DNA of 44,546 nucleotides from Geodermatophilus obscurus (GTDB taxonomy: Bacteria > Actinomycetota > Actinomycetes > Mycobacteriales > Geodermatophilaceae): NCBI RefSeq assembly GCF_900143215.1, contig NZ_FRDM01000031.1, positions 1-44,546 of the forward strand. Direction: 5' to 3'. The position numbers and the translations under genes are program-made. Each line of letters starts with the position of its first letter. The stretch's first letter is position 1. Below, piece after piece: positions 1-38,234 of the stretch. The notes under the pieces were generated by a model, which saw only the letters and a list, made by a program, of their open reading frames with translations, was not told the DNA's origin and ran no database searches.

Positions 1-108
1 CACTCGGACTGGTCCGACGGCGGCAGCCCGATCCGCGAGATGGCGGAGGCGGCGATCGGGCTGGGCCACGAGTACATGGCGCTGACCGACCACTCGTCCC
101 GCCCGTAG
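1..108 (+). pseudogene. PHP-domain protein fragment at window edge
   Basis: Frame 1 from the first base reads HSDWSDGGSPIREMAEAA and continues to ALTDHS before running into a TAG at 106-108. The HSDWSDG and LTDHS elements are the metal-binding signature of PHP domains, as found in PolX-type polymerases and PHP hydrolases, where the second motif normally continues as TDHSPRL. Here the resemblance stops after the HS codons (to base 96) because the DNA switches to the antisense of fdhB. Only about 32 PHP residues are present, with neither natural end. It is either the scar of a rearrangement or an assembly chimera at a contig end. The family assignment is fairly safe; the biological reality of the join is not. 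Confidence 0.6.
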
Positions 109-974
109 AGCCGCGCGGTCTCGACGCCCTGCGACTTCAGCGTGGCCAGCCGCGCGTCGGCGCGGGCCTGCAGCTCGTCGAGGTTGCCGAACTGGATCGA
201 CTGCGTCGGGCAGGCGGTCGCGCACGCGGGCTGCAGGCCGTCGGTCAGCCGGTCGTAGCACATCGTGCACTTGAAGACCCGGCCGTCGCCCTTGCGCTGC
301 TCGATGACGCCGTACGGGCAGGACGGCACGCAGTAGCCGCAGCCGTTGCAGATGTCGCCCTGGACGACCACCGTGCCGAACTCGGTGCGGAACAGCGCGC
401 CGGTCGGGCAGACGTCGAGGCACCCGGCGTGCGTGCAGTGCTTGCACACGTCGGAGCTCATCAGCCAGCGGATCTGCTTGTCCGTGCCCGACTGCCCGGT
501 CTGCGGATCGAACTCGCTCAGCGCCTCGGCGTTGAGCACGCTGGACTGCTGCGCCGTCGCCAGGCTCTCGTCGTTCGGGCCGTCGGCGACCGAGCGGCCG
601 CTGTCGCTGCGGTCGTCCCCGGGCCGGCCGAACGTCGGCATCGGCAGGTCCACGGTGCGGGTCTGCTCGATGAACGCCACGTGCCGCCAGGAGTTGGCCC
701 CCAGCTGCCCGGTGTTGTCGTAGGACATCCCGGACAGCCCCATGACGTCGCGCACGCCGTGCGCGTCGTCCATCGGCAGGAAGTTCCACTCCTTGCAGGC
801 CACCTCGCAGGCCTTGCAGCCGATGCACACCGAGGTGTCGGTGAAGAACCCGACCCGCGCCGGGTGGTCGCCGTCGTACCCGGCCTCGCCCTGGACGTCG
901 GGCAGCGGCCCGTACAGCCGGTTCTCCGGGTCCCGCCCGGTGAAGGCCGGGCTCGCCGAACTGATCGAGGTCAT
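1..974 (-). CDS. fdhB: Formate dehydrogenase beta (iron-sulfur) subunit, 3' end broken
   Basis: Electron-transfer subunit that carries electrons from the FdhA active site through four [4Fe-4S] clusters to a membrane quinone-reducing partner or soluble acceptor. Translation from ATG 974, preceded by a GAGAGGAGG ribosome site, gives the four ferredoxin-type cysteine groups in order: C50-x2-C53-x2-C56-x3-C60, then the VCKHCTHAGC, CNGCGYC and CTMCYDR groups. The chain is normal to about residue 292 (LYGRDE, near base 95-110). From there the reading frame stays open to the window edge but encodes the antisense of a PHP gene, so the true C-terminal tail is absent. It lies 121 bases downstream of fdhA in the same direction, as is usual. 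The assignment is firm; the true 3' end is unknown. Confidence 0.9.
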   Translation of the reverse strand, partial: MTSISSASPAFTGRDPENRLYGPLPDVQGEAGYDGDHPARVGFFTDTSVCIGCKACEVACKEWNFLPMDDAHGVRDVMGLSGMSYDNTGQLGANSWRHVAFIEQTRTVDLPMPTFGRPGDDRSDSGRSVADGPNDESLATAQQSSVLNAEALSEFDPQTGQSGTDKQIRWLMSSDVCKHCTHAGCLDVCPTGALFRTEFGTVVVQGDICNGCGYCVPSCPYGVIEQRKGDGRVFKCTMCYDRLTDGLQPACATACPTQSIQFGNLDELQARADARLATLKSQGVETARLYGRDEWSVSAMYSWPSPIAASAISRIGLPPSDQSE

Positions 975-1095: not shown

Positions 1096-4000
1096 TCACA
1101 GCTTCGATCCCTCGCCGGCCTCGGCCGTCACCGGGTCGCGGCCGTTGACCCCGACCCGCCCGGACGGCACGCCGGCGCGCTGCCGGTAGCCCTCCACGAA
1201 CTCGATGAGCTCGGGCCCGCGCGGACGCCGCCCCGGCCGGATGTCGGCGGTGCTGACCTTGTCCTCCTGGATGTGCGTGTTCGGGTCCAGCACGATCCCC
1301 AGCAGGTCGTTGGCCCCGTCGCCGGTCGAGATGCCGCTGTAGGACCAGTGGTAGGGCATCCCGATCTGGTGCACGACCTGGCCGTCCCCGAGCTTGATCG
1401 GCCGGATCCGCTCGGTGACCAGCACCTTCGCCTCGATGGCCGTCCGCGAGCTGACCAGCGTGGCGTACTCGCCGTTGGTCAGGCCGCGCAGCTCGGCCAG
1501 CTCCGGGCTGACCTCGACGAAGAACTCCGGCTGCAGCTCCGACAGGTAGGGCAGCGTGCGGCTCATCCCGCCGGCGGTGTGGTGCTCGGTCAGCCGGTAG
1601 GTGGTCACCTGGAACGGGAAGACGTCGGACAGCGGCGGGTTCTCCCGGTTCCACGGCCCCTCGATGCGCTCCAGCGTCGGGTTCGCCTGCTGCTTGTACA
1701 GGGCGTTCTCGACGACGGACTCGGCCGGCTCGTAGTGCGTCGGCAGCGGGCCGTCGACCAGCCCGGCGGGCGCGAACAGCCACGCCTTGCCGTCGCCCTG
1801 CATGACGAACGGGTCGGTCCCGGCGATCGCGTCCTGCGCCCTGGCACCCTCCGGCGGCACGTAGTCCGGCCGCTTGGTCGCCTCGAAGTCCGGGGTGTCC
1901 AGACCCGTCCAGCGACCGGCCTCCTCGTCCCACCAGACGTAGGCCTTGCGCTCGCTCCACGGCTTGCCGTCGGGGTCGGCCGAGGCGCGGTTGTAGAGGA
2001 TCCGCCGGTTGTACGGCCAGGCCCAACCCCACTCGGCGGCCACCGTCCCCTGCTCGCGGCCGGGCCTGCGGCGGGCGGACTGGTTGACCTCGTCGGCGTA
2101 GACGCCGGAGTAGATCCAGCAGCCGCACGACGTCGAGCCGTCGTCCTTGAGCTCCAGGTAGCCCGACACCGCACGGCCGTCCGGGCCGGTGCCGTTGATC
2201 TCCCGCAGCACGGCGTCCGCACTCGGCTCCCGGTCGGGCCCGTGGGTCGGGTAGTCCCAGGTGAGGTCGAGCAGCGGGCGGTCCCGCGGGTCGGTGGAGC
2301 CGGCCAGCCGCTCCCGCAGGATGCGACCGAGGTGGAAGTAGAACCACAGGTCGCTCTTGGCGTCGCCCGGCGGGTCGACCGCCTTGTGCCGCCACTGCAG
2401 CAGCCGCTGGGTCTGGGTGAACGTCCCCTCCTTCTCCGCGTGCGACGCCGCGGGCACGAAGAAGACCTCGGTGCCGATCGTCTCGGGGGCCAGCTCCCCG
2501 GTCTCGATCTCCGGGGACTCCTTCCAGAAGGTCGCCGACTCGATCATCTGCAGGTCGCGGACGACCAGCCAGTCCAGGTTGGCCAGGCCGAACCGGTTCA
2601 TGCGCCCGTTGGGGTGCCCGACCGTCGGGTTCTCGCCGACCAGGAAGTAGCCGGACACCTTGCCCTGGATCATGTCGGCGATCGTCCGGTAGGAGCTGTG
2701 GTCGCCGTCGATCTTCGGGAGGTAGTCGAACGCGAAGTCGTTCTCCGGCGTCGCGGCGTCCCCCCACCAGGCCTTGAGCAGGCTGGTCATGTAAGCGCGC
2801 TTGTTGCCCCAGAACCCGGCCTTGCCGGCCGCGTCGGCGCAGTACTCGTCGAGGTCGCCGTGCTGCAGGGCGTGCGGCATGGGCAGGTAGCCCGGCAGCA
2901 GGTTGTACAGCGTCGGGACGTCGGTCGAGCCCTGGATGCTCGCGTGCCCGCGCAGCGCCAGGATGCCGCCGCCAGGGCGGCCGATGTTGCCCAGCAGCGT
3001 CTGCAAGATCGAGCAGGTGCGGATGTACTGCGCGCCGACGCTGTGCTGCGTCCAGCCCACCGAGTACACCCAGGCCGTCGTCCGCTCGCGGCCGCTGTTC
3101 TCGGTGATCCACCGCGCGACCTGAAGGAACACCTCCGGCTCGATGCCGCAGACCTCGGCCACCATCTCCGGGGTGTAGCGGTCGAAGTGCCGCTTGAGGA
3201 CCTGGAACACCGAGCGCGGGTGCTGCAGGGTCTCGTCGCGCTTCGGCTTGGCCGCGATCGGCGGGCCGCCGCTGCCGGCCGCCTGCGCGTGGTCGGTCTT
3301 CTTGACCTCGGGGTCCTGCTCCCTGCGGTCCTGCTCGGCGGCCCCGGCCGGGTCGTCCGAGCCGGAGTGCGGCGGCTCCTCCGGTTCGTACTGCCAGCTG
3401 GCCTCGTCGTACTGGTTGTTCTCCGGGTCGAAGCCGGAGAACAGCCCGTCGAGGTCCTCGGAGTCGACGAAGTCCGCACTCACCAGCGCCGAGGCGTTGG
3501 TGTAGGCGACGACGTACTCCTTGAAGTACAGCTCGTTGTCGAGCACGTACTTGATCAGGCCGCCGAGGAACGCGATGTCGGTGCCGATCCGCAGCGGGAC
3601 GTGCAGGTCGGCGATCGCGCTGGTGCGGGTGAACCGCGGGTCGATGTGCACGACCTTGGCCCCGCGCGCCTTGGCCTCGCTCACCCACTGGAAACCCACC
3701 GGGTGGCACTCGGCCATGTTCGAACCCTCGATGACGATGCAGTCGGAGTTCGCGAGGTCTTCCTGGAAGTTCGTGGCACCGCCACGACCGAACGAGGCAC
3801 CCAGACCGGGCACCGTGGCGGAGTGCTATATGCGCGCCTGGTTCTCGATCTGGATCGCGCCCATGGCGCTGTAGAGCTTCTTCATGAGGTAGTTCTCCTC
3901 GTTGTCGAGGGTCGCCCCTCCGAGGCTCGCTATCCCCATGGTGCGGTTGACGCGCTTGCCGTCGTTCTCGTCCTGCCAACCCTTGCGGCGGGCCTCGATC

Positions 4001-4386
4001 ACCCGGTCGGCGATCATGTGCATCGCCGTGTCGAGCTCGAGGTCCTCCCACTCCGTCCCGAACGGACGGCGGTACTTCACCGTCGTCACGCGGGTCGGGC
4101 TGGTGACCAGCTGCTTGCTGGCGCTGCCCTTGGGGCACAGCCGGCCGCGGCTGATCGGCGAGTCCGGGTCGCCCTCGATCTGGACGATCTGCTCGTCCTT
4201 GACGTAGATCCGCTGGCCGCACCCCACCGCGCAGTACGGGCACACGCTCTGCACGACGCGGTCGGCGGTGGCCGTGCGGCTCACCACGTTCTCCGTCGCC
4301 TTGCTGCGCGCGGCCAGGCCGCGTCCGAGGGGATCGGCACCGGTCAGCTGCCGGAACACCGGCCACGCGTCGAGCCAGGTCTTCAC
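1096..4386 (-). CDS. fdhA: Formate dehydrogenase alpha subunit, selenoprotein with UAG-encoded selenocysteine
   Basis: Mo/W-bis-MGD catalytic subunit that oxidises formate to CO2. Residues C49, C52, C56 and C84 bind the N-terminal [4Fe-4S] cluster. At residue 187 the frame meets TAG (3826-3828) between QARI and HSATVPGLGASFGRG. E. coli FdnG has QARV-Sec-HGPTV at the same place, so the codon falls exactly on the metal-ligating selenocysteine. The frame is otherwise open for 910 codons downstream, with conserved molybdopterin-binding segments, and a SECIS hairpin follows the TAG. I choose GTG 4386 (protein start VKTWLDAWPV, the usual N-terminus in actinobacterial homologues); its Shine-Dalgarno is weak, and the longer frame to 4581 runs into a repeat. 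No Tat signal is visible. Standard gene callers would split this into two ORFs or call it a pseudogene. Total 1,096 residues. Confidence 0.92.
3779..3828 (-). promoter_or_regulatory. UAG Sec codon plus bacterial SECIS hairpin in fdhA
   Basis: Reading the minus strand, TAG (3828-3826) is followed by exactly 18 bases and then GGUCU (3807-3803), the same distance and loop as in E. coli fdhF. GGUCU is the apical loop of a 7-bp stem (GGUGCCC with GGGUGCC, two G-U pairs). Below it CCGCCAC (3821-3815) pairs perfectly with GUGGCGG (3785-3779) across a one-sided bulge. In bacteria such a stem-loop recruits SelB carrying Sec-tRNA. The structure is read directly from the sequence; decoding of UAG requires a tRNA-Sec with a CUA anticodon, which is not in this window. 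Confidence 0.85.
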
Positions 4387-4572: not shown

Positions 4573-4644
4573 GTTGATCATGGGGTTGTCGCACGCTCGA
4601 CCGGCGCGTCGTCCCGTGTCCCCTGCAACAACCCCATGATCAAC
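4573..4644. repeat. Palindromic intergenic element, copy 1
   Basis: A 17-bp perfect inverted repeat (4573-4589 and 4628-4644; arm core TGATCATGGGGTTGT) encloses about 38 bases with the words GTCGCACGCTCG, CCGGCGCGTCG and CGTGTCCCCTGCA. Nearly the same unit recurs at 5678-5745, and a diverged one at 38161-38234. It has no coding content and lies upstream of fdhA. It resembles a REP/MITE-like unit; the family name is unknown to me. Confidence 0.8.
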
Positions 4645-4693: not shown

Positions 4694-5563
4694 TCAGGGG
4701 CGCCAGCCGCGGCTGACCAGGGCCCGCCGCGTGCGCTCGACCACCACGACGGGGCCGCCGAGGTGCCGCCCGGCGAAGCGGAGGACCAGCCAGCCGTCGG
4801 CGGCCATCAGCGAGTACCGGTCGACGTCCCGCCCGAACTGGTCGGGGTCGGCGTGCTGGCGCCCCTCGTACTCCAGCGCCACCTTCCACTCCGGGTAGCC
4901 GAGGTCGGCGTGGGCGACCTCGCGGCCCCACCGGTCGTGCACCGGCACCTGCACCTGCGGGTCGGGCAGGTCGCTGGTCACCAGCCAGTAGCGGACCAGG
5001 CTCTCCGGCCGGGACGCCGCCCTGCCGTCGAGCCGTCGGGCGCAGTCGCGTGCCCGGACGACGCCCCGCACGCGGTCGGCACGCCGTAGGCGCCGCGCCA
5101 GCGAGTCGGCGTCCATCTCCCCGGAGCGCACGAGCGCGTCACCGACCGCCACCAGTTCCGCGGCCGGGAGCCGGGCGGCGAGGTCGAGGAACGTCTGCGC
5201 GCCGGACGTCAGCGGCAGCCCACCGGCCGCTCCGACGTCCTCCTCCGCCAGCAGCCGCTCGTGGACGGTGAGCCCCGCGCGCCTGGGCAGCTGCCGCCGA
5301 GAGGGGACGACGACGTGCACGGTGGGCGGCTCCGGCACCGGCGCCCCGTACAGCCGGGCCGCCGTCCCCAGACCGAAGGCGACGTCGCCCGGGAGGACCA
5401 GCCGCCAGGCGCCGCAGCGGGTGGTGAGGTCCGGCTCGACGGCGGAGGAGAGGTACAGCCCGCGCCCGATGCGGACGCCGTCCTGGGTGATCTGCCCGCG
5501 GGTCGCGCCCCGGGACCGGGCGTCGTCCCAGGTGTAGGCGGTGCCGAGGTCGATGTCCGTCAT
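4694..5563 (-). CDS. DUF559 / VSR-like nuclease-fold protein with AbiEi-type N-terminus
   Basis: 289-residue protein of a type that is abundant in actinobacteria. The N-terminal half (YTWDDARSRGATRGQI..GVRIGRGLYL and the following segment) resembles the AbiEi-like antitoxin winged-helix region. The C-terminal part (DLGYPEWKVALEYEGRQH, then a D-x-D and ..GWLVLRF) matches the DUF559/VSR endonuclease fold, with acidic residues in a PD-(D/E)xK-like arrangement and a conserved His. ATG 5563 is chosen over upstream alternatives because the AbiEi-like homology begins there. No adjacent toxin gene is visible, so an AbiE toxin-antitoxin role is unlikely. It stands alone between two copies of the palindromic repeat. 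Substrate and function are unknown. Confidence 0.75.
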   Translation of the reverse strand: MTDIDLGTAYTWDDARSRGATRGQITQDGVRIGRGLYLSSAVEPDLTTRCGAWRLVLPGDVAFGLGTAARLYGAPVPEPPTVHVVVPSRRQLPRRAGLTVHERLLAEEDVGAAGGLPLTSGAQTFLDLAARLPAAELVAVGDALVRSGEMDADSLARRLRRADRVRGVVRARDCARRLDGRAASRPESLVRYWLVTSDLPDPQVQVPVHDRWGREVAHADLGYPEWKVALEYEGRQHADPDQFGRDVDRYSLMAADGWLVLRFAGRHLGGPVVVVERTRRALVSRGWRP

Positions 5564-5872
5564 GCGGCCGACCGTGGAGCCTCGTTCGTCCGGGCAGCGC
5601 CGCCGACGGTGATCTGTGGACGCCGCCCTGCGCTGTGGACGTCGGCGTGCGGGCTCCCCGCCCACTGCCCTCCGCGGTGATCATGGGGTTGTCGCACGCT
5701 CGGCCGGCGCGTCGCCGCGTGTCCCCTGCAACAACCCCATGATCAACTCGAGAGGAGAGGGAGAGGAGAGCGAGGTGGCCCCTGGGCGGCCCGGGCGGCG
5801 CCTCACGTCAGGGGCTCCCCGTAGGGGTCGAACCGGTGCCGGATCGTCGGACCCGCGGTCGATACTGGGCGC
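5564..5872. other. Intergenic region between divergent genes
   Basis: Holds the second palindromic element and, immediately before the GTG start at 5873, a GATACT hexamer that could be a -10 box for a leaderless transcript. I see no gene. Confidence 0.5.
5678..5745. repeat. Palindromic intergenic element, copy 2
   Basis: Arms 5678-5692 and 5731-5745 are perfect inverted repeats of the same TGATCATGGGGTTGT core. The intervening sequence differs from copy 1 at only a few positions. Copies 1 and 2 bracket the DUF559 gene, so that gene plus its flanks could be excised or inverted by recombination between them (inference). Confidence 0.8.
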
Positions 5873-38160: not shown

Positions 38161-38234
38161 TGTTGATCATGGGGTCGTTGCCGCACGCCTCGCCGGGTCG
38201 CGGCGGGTCCTCCTGCCACAACCCCATGATCGAC
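38161..38234. repeat. Palindromic intergenic element, copy 3 (diverged)
   Basis: Same plan as the elements at 4573 and 5678: TGTTGATCATGGGGTCGTTG on the left and ACAACCCCATGATCGAC on the right, with shared internal words (CCGCACGC, CGGGTC). The arms are imperfect here. It sits just downstream of the hypothetical gene at 38256. Confidence 0.72.

Follow-up and report, generated by a model that had tools for sequence, protein, structure and literature searches.

Does a TAG inside a formate dehydrogenase gene of Geodermatophilus obscurus terminate translation, or is it read as selenocysteine (Sec)? The question is posed by fdhA, encoding the formate dehydrogenase alpha subunit (1096..4386, minus strand), on the 44,546-nucleotide stretch of DNA that was analysed as a whole and is called the window here; in the assembly (5.24 Mb, 99.7% complete) it is contig C27. 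When read from the GTG start at 4386, the frame comprises 186 codons, a single TAG as codon 187 (3826..3828, minus strand, read 3828..3826, in the context QARI-U-HS), 909 sense codons and a TGA stop (1098..1096), yielding 1096 residues if UAG is taken as Sec. An earlier reading made from the letters alone (the sequence-only reading) had described this frame; the 186 codons before a single TAG and the open frame behind it were recovered, while its count of 910 downstream codons included the stop. Next to fdhA lies fdhB, encoding the 4Fe-4S beta subunit (1..974, minus strand, start at 974), which is cut by the contig start and as a partial piece scored 160.6 bits with TIGR01582, below the cut-off of 334.7. 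Third-position GC of fdhA is 0.957 on the 5' side of the TAG and 0.976 on the 3' side, and 909 open codons would arise by composition alone with a chance of about 1.5e-6. Frames of 1131 and 1136 codons, for which no homology is claimed, overlap fdhA in other readings. Since the window sequence has 74% GC and such long rival frames overlap the gene, the open frame alone is weak proof.

A palindromic repeat of about 70 bases (TGATCATGGGGTTGT ... ACAACCCCATGATCA) was also observed in the window. It occurs at 4575-4642 and 5678-5745, as close copies flanking the gene at 4694-5665, and as a diverged third copy at 38164-38232. Exact pairs were absent from twelve 20-kb genome stretches and present in the loci L043, L045 and L055.

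Homology, not the openness of the frame, decides whether fdhA is real. The protein belongs to the molybdopterin formate dehydrogenases, with matches to Pfam PF04879, PF00384 and PF01568, and it reaches 1919.9 bits with NCBIfam NF041513 (actinobacterial formate dehydrogenase; curated cut-off 1400). Residue 187 aligned with residue X of the PDB chains 1kqf_A (E. coli FdnG) and 1h0h_A, which we take to be Sec, so that the TAG indeed occupies the Sec position of E. coli FdnG, as had been proposed. The site is thus identified by frame reading, by this alignment and by the codons of the family.

These codons were collected from all 112 genomes of GTDB Geodermatophilaceae and from an order-wide draw of 397 genomes (75 of the family, 322 others). 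In the family, 126 FdhA matches were obtained in 100 of the 112 genomes, some of them being two pieces of one gene; by hand count 118 span residue 187, and the remaining 8 are pieces that start after it. Each of the 118 carries an in-frame TAG. TGA occurs in all 69 non-family FdhA among the matches listed, doubled in two and accompanied by an extra TAG in one. Codon 187 itself was read in 70 FdhA loci and is TAG in 47, all from the family, and TGA in 23, all from outside it. With TAG in every spanning family match and in all 47 family codons read, the TAG in the window is no sequencing error. A double stop (TGA and TAG) considered for FdhA of the genomes G024, G009 and G029 was discarded, as only the TAG lies within the aligned residues 1-1086 and the TGA beyond was taken as the true stop; similarly, in the non-family FdhA of G321 with a TAG besides TGA, codon 187 is TGA. 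Both FdhA copies of G079 (L076 and L077) break in frame near the Sec site, their alignments lacking residues 171-202 and 180-196, either because the genes have decayed or because the assembly is faulty at the hairpin.

Publicly listed close relatives of FdhA are pieces of about 860-910 amino acids without the N-terminal Fe4S4 domain, confirming the suspicion that ordinary annotation hides this gene. The same records could be taken to mean that TAG terminates and that a shorter enzyme is made from an internal start, like the annotated 905-residue form from GTG 3813. Such a form would possess neither the Fe4S4 domain nor the catalytic residue, and the upstream half is kept in frame across the family, which makes termination at this codon very improbable.

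If UAG is Sec, a matching tRNA is expected, and the sequence-only reading had proposed to search the genome for a tRNASec with CUA anticodon and for selA, selB and selD. A tRNASec gene with this anticodon and a long extra arm was found at C48:309560-309651 (Rfam RF01852, 65.1 bits, cut-off 47), with selD on one side and selA followed by selB on the other; its absence from the genome, which had been named as the observation that would speak against Sec, is therefore not what is seen. Apart from this gene, RF01852 exceeded the cut-off only at the tRNA-Ser(TGA) gene of the window. For selA and selB a single match each scored above the cut-off, and selD was called by eye from its open reading frame, which was used as search query. 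The best TIGR00475 match among other proteins, in this genome and in the Geodermatophilus sp. LHW52908 genome discussed below, scored 206.4 (cut-off 242.25) and was not taken as SelB.

ARAGORN labels the same gene tRNA-Pyl (cta), and UAG is the pyrrolysine codon, so that the tRNA might be thought to insert pyrrolysine. The label probably results from the CUA anticodon. The gene passes the Rfam tRNA-Sec cut-off, has a long extra arm and lies between selD and selA, and the TAG is found at the Sec site of a formate dehydrogenase; tRNAPyl, according to the accessible text of PMC7609411, has a variable arm of three nucleotides, a structure that the tRNA found here does not share. Pyrrolysine is therefore exceedingly improbable.

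UAG is also used for termination in this genome. RF1 is encoded (prfA, 475.3 bits, cut-off 423.25), and among 165 crude gene calls in 284,546 bases of the genome 142 end in TGA, 22 in TAG (one being the 5' piece of fdhA) and 1 in TAA, indicating that UAG is a minor and UGA the main stop. As RF1 is present and 21 of 164 calls end in TAG when the fdhA piece is set aside, UAG functions as a stop as well, and fdhA may be read through only in part.

A hairpin predicted to act as SECIS element (GGUGCCC-GGUCU-GGGUGCC; 3796..3814, minus strand) starts after 11 nucleotides downstream of the TAG. Rfam SECIS_3 (RF01989) matched 3770-3831 at E 0.011, its 22.1 bits falling short of the gathering score (63), and folding energies of the region are ordinary compared with shuffles (z -0.65 and -1.43). 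The element was recognised by covariation, the Rfam model alone staying below threshold. The third positions of the Val codon and a Gly codon can pair in all 56 distinct sequences compared (34 TAG, 22 TGA), whereas 2000 shuffles averaged 27.5 and never exceeded 40; the pair occurs as G-U, G-C, C-G, U-A and U-G. The second wobble pair (20,26) is likewise formed in 56/56, with a shuffle mean of 54.0 and an equal count in 42 of 2000 shuffles, and the outer pair (14,32) is weak (41/56 paired, shuffle mean 37.3). The first two of these pairs have z values of 8.1 and 5.1, as against 3.4 and 3.1 for two third-position combinations outside the hairpin. The loop region reads CGGTCTG in 48 of the 56 sequences. 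One hairpin is thus common to the TAG and the TGA group, indicating that the codon changed between them and the SECIS element did not.

FdhA is not the only protein in which TAG is found at a Sec site. Two UGSC-family genes of the same genome have TAG followed by GSC, one at C52:229657-230082 (142.7 bits) and one at C83:89175-89588 (106.7 bits, short of the cut-off of 125). Behind each TAG comes an 8-bp hairpin whose loop is GUG or GUC (z -1.69 and -1.68 against shuffles). By hand count, 54 of the 112 family genomes contain 95 UGSC matches, 72 of which have one TAG, 23 no stop and none TGA. The seven CMD-domain matches in the window's genome contain no stop. Some readthrough of UAG is general in bacteria, and a near-cognate tRNA might accordingly insert an ordinary residue at codon 187; this would leave the tRNASec(CUA), the covarying SECIS hairpin and the occurrence of UAG at Sec sites in two gene families unexplained, and the chance that it applies is minute.

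Taken together, a TAG at the Sec site of relatives and a tRNASec gene whose anticodon fits UAG suggest that UAG is Sec here, and the covarying SECIS hairpin and the two UGSC genes with TAG lend support to the sequence-only reading on this point. Codon 187 of fdhA is very likely decoded as Sec by the tRNASec(CUA) encoded beside selD, selA and selB. Both this decoding and its efficiency we infer from the genes. By analogy with the bacterial Sec pathway, SerRS would charge tRNASec(CUA) with serine, SelA together with selenophosphate from SelD would convert the seryl-tRNA to Sec-tRNA, and SelB would deliver it to a ribosome paused at UAG and the SECIS hairpin, where RF1 would compete with it. Since other UAG codons have no SECIS element behind them, they would remain stops.

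How far this use of UAG extends was analysed with tRNA patterns in the order-wide draw. The CUA tRNASec pattern was found in 75/75 family genomes and 2/322 others, and the UCA pattern in 1/75 family genomes (LHW52908, G058) and 168/322 others; in 154 of the 322 non-family genomes neither pattern matched. One of the two CUA matches outside the family, in G236, shows no tRNASec-like arm by eye and was taken as chance. The other is in G230, a metagenome-assembled genome of another family with both CUA and UCA patterns. Its selD and part of its selA on the CUA contig (C194) are 89% and 81% identical to those of the window's genome and the selA of its UCA locus only 62%, and for this reason a two-codon genome was rejected and C194 regarded as most likely a contaminant. 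This contaminant-like Geodermatophilaceae contig with a tRNASec(CUA) (L236) could be mistaken for a sign of two Sec codons in one genome.

Of 30 tRNASec loci read from a fuller scan of the family, 22 have CUA and 8 UCA, seven of the latter in the genera g5, g6 and g7 and one a second gene in LHW52908. The three genera comprise nine draft genomes, two of which have no clear tRNASec, and FdhA gave no match in the nine at E 1e-100. In the four g5-g7 genomes with a selA gene close to the tRNA, SelA shares 63-66% identity with that of the window's genome, compared with 85% for LHW52908. Given these UCA tRNAs and distant SelA proteins, the switch from UGA to UAG likely took place after g5-g7 had split off. 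It requires two base changes in the codon and in the anticodon alike, and UAA is a possible intermediate. A paired change, from UCA to CUA in the tRNASec anticodon and from UGA to UAG in the Sec codons, would likely have fixed the trait in the ancestor of the core Geodermatophilaceae, with the SECIS element left as before.

A tree of 70 FdhA proteins, built with a quick method, includes 47 of the 118 spanning family matches as TAG rows and 23 of the 69 non-family matches listed as TGA rows; L243, L254 and L262 were flagged as long rows. TAG appears in five separate places, and branches with at least 95% SH-aLRT support force at least five changes. The main TAG clade has 40 rows, and further TAG copies (L245-L247, L243, L242, and L241 with L244) stand beside TGA copies of other families. 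These seven copies, L241-L247 from the genomes G039, G104, G001, G057, G052, G092 and G033, are 62-69% identical to FdhA of the window and are nested among TGA copies. AU tests, in which the groups were named after the tree had been seen and a joint clade of L243 with L245-L247 lay outside the set, rejected a single clade of all TAG rows (p 2.7e-7) as well as joining to the main TAG clade for L245-L247 (p 1.9e-46), L243 (p 1.2e-7), L242 (p 5.95e-4) and L241 with L244 (p 7.1e-58); L242, L241 and L244 as one clade were also rejected (p 1.1e-5).

TAG in five places of the tree suggests that acquired UGA fdhA genes have apparently undergone recoding four times or more. Most simply, UGA fdhA would have arrived by horizontal transfer on at least four occasions and been converted to UAG each time; the tree itself cannot separate gain from loss, and the direction from TGA to TAG is deduced from the TGA seen in the remainder of the order. 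Complete clusters of fdh, selD, tRNASec, selA and selB are present on Arthrobacter plasmid pYA7-1a (L288), which was typed as conjugative, and on plasmid 17 of Tsukamurella tyrosinosolvens (L289), indicating that enzyme and complete Sec trait can be transferred together.

LHW52908, which shares the genus code of the window's genome, has its tRNASec(CUA) inside the sel locus and uses TAG in FdhA as well as in its UGSC gene; for SelA and SelB it has a single match each above the cut-off. Its second tRNASec has the anticodon UCA (81.8 bits) and lies together with an AhpD-like gene at L071 1169-2157 on contig C17 (NZ_QVQH01000024.1, 69,133 bases). The AhpD-like gene, 315 bases from this tRNA, matches Pfam CMD and TIGR01926 (112.6 bits vs 81.8) and contains one in-frame TGA, at residue 98 in NRCFY-U-MESH. 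According to the accessible text of PMC13188914, AhpD-like TIGR01926 proteins with CxxU are known selenoproteins. A search for relatives returned 67 loci, the first being the query's own; 64 cover the site, 63 with TGA and one with TGC. By their titles these are mostly from Acidobacteria and also from Planctomycetes, Gemmatimonadetes and others, with no actinobacterium besides LHW52908 among the 67. The TGA is followed by a 7-bp hairpin with a GUU loop, whose letters are alike in most of the 25 sequences printed.

The island carrying the two genes has 59-63% GC, compared with 73% over the first 40 kb, and lies, judged by eye, between transposase-like open reading frames. A neighbouring gene has relatives that are mostly unnamed among the 120 listed, one being named Pyrinomonadaceae. 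As hemG on C17 is 94% identical to another Geodermatophilus hemG, the contig looks like host chromosome. No tRNASec was found within the examined flanks of the other AhpD-like loci. The AhpD-like protein has no relative in IMG/VR and only relatives below 60% identity on plasmids; the tRNASec(UCA) had no match in phages and five records on plasmids.

Both tRNASec types, together with Sec-site genes carrying TAG and TGA, suggest that two Sec codons are likely in use in LHW52908, unless the island is inactive or misassembled. On balance, we consider it probable that this strain reads UAG with its native tRNASec(CUA) and UGA with a tRNASec(UCA) from a transposase-flanked island with a foreign AhpD-like gene, using a single SelA and a single SelB for both codons. 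An incoming UGA fdhA would usually have been converted to UAG (at least four times), and LHW52908 would have imported the tRNA instead. If so, the strain would represent a naturally occurring Sec code with two codons and an intermediate stage of code change, and would allow the direct question whether SelB serves two codons in one cell.

More generally, a stop-codon reassignment so far described in a few genomes holds throughout the core genera of an actinobacterial family, and its boundary, across which the SECIS element is unchanged, is visible within one order. The phylogenetic split itself is observed directly; the order of events behind it is our interpretation. The apparent repeated recoding of fdhA shows the fate of an imported gene when the code of the host differs. 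In practice, these enzymes are annotated as truncated and without their catalytic residue.

Mukai et al. reportedly described UAG-programmed selenoprotein synthesis in Geodermatophilus and Blastococcus in 2016. The literature claim that the sequence-only reading invoked holds at second hand, as the accessible text of the SecMarker paper lists tRNASec(CUA) in three Geodermatophilaceae genomes and TAG as Sec in FDH, UGSC and, in Blastococcus saxobsidens DD2, AhpC (PMC5330540). UAG, UAA and ten sense codons are in use for Sec according to the accessible text of PMC10778597. UAG as Sec in Geodermatophilaceae is thus already known as a rare exception to the UGA rule. New here, as far as no report was found, are the repeated recoding of fdhA and the two-codon candidate LHW52908; the search gave no report of recoding of acquired fdhA or of mixed tRNASec anticodons in one Geodermatophilus genome, and with most subscription journals outside its range it is weak evidence of absence.

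LHW52908 resembles genomes with several tRNASec genes in having more than one, and differs from them in that its two genes have different anticodons, a case that is not mentioned in the accessible text of the SecMarker paper (PMC5330540). The system in the window's genome resembles the UAG-Sec system of Geodermatophilus and Blastococcus in tRNASec(CUA), in TAG at the FDH and UGSC Sec sites and in the family of the organism, and no mechanistic difference was seen. Its hairpin agrees with SECIS_3 in position after the Sec codon and in loop sequence, and differs in scoring below the gathering threshold of that model (22.1 versus 63). With the canonical bacterial Sec system it shares SelA, SelB, SelD, the position and loop of the SECIS element and the FdhA family, whereas UAG and the anticodon CUA are found here in place of UGA and UCA.
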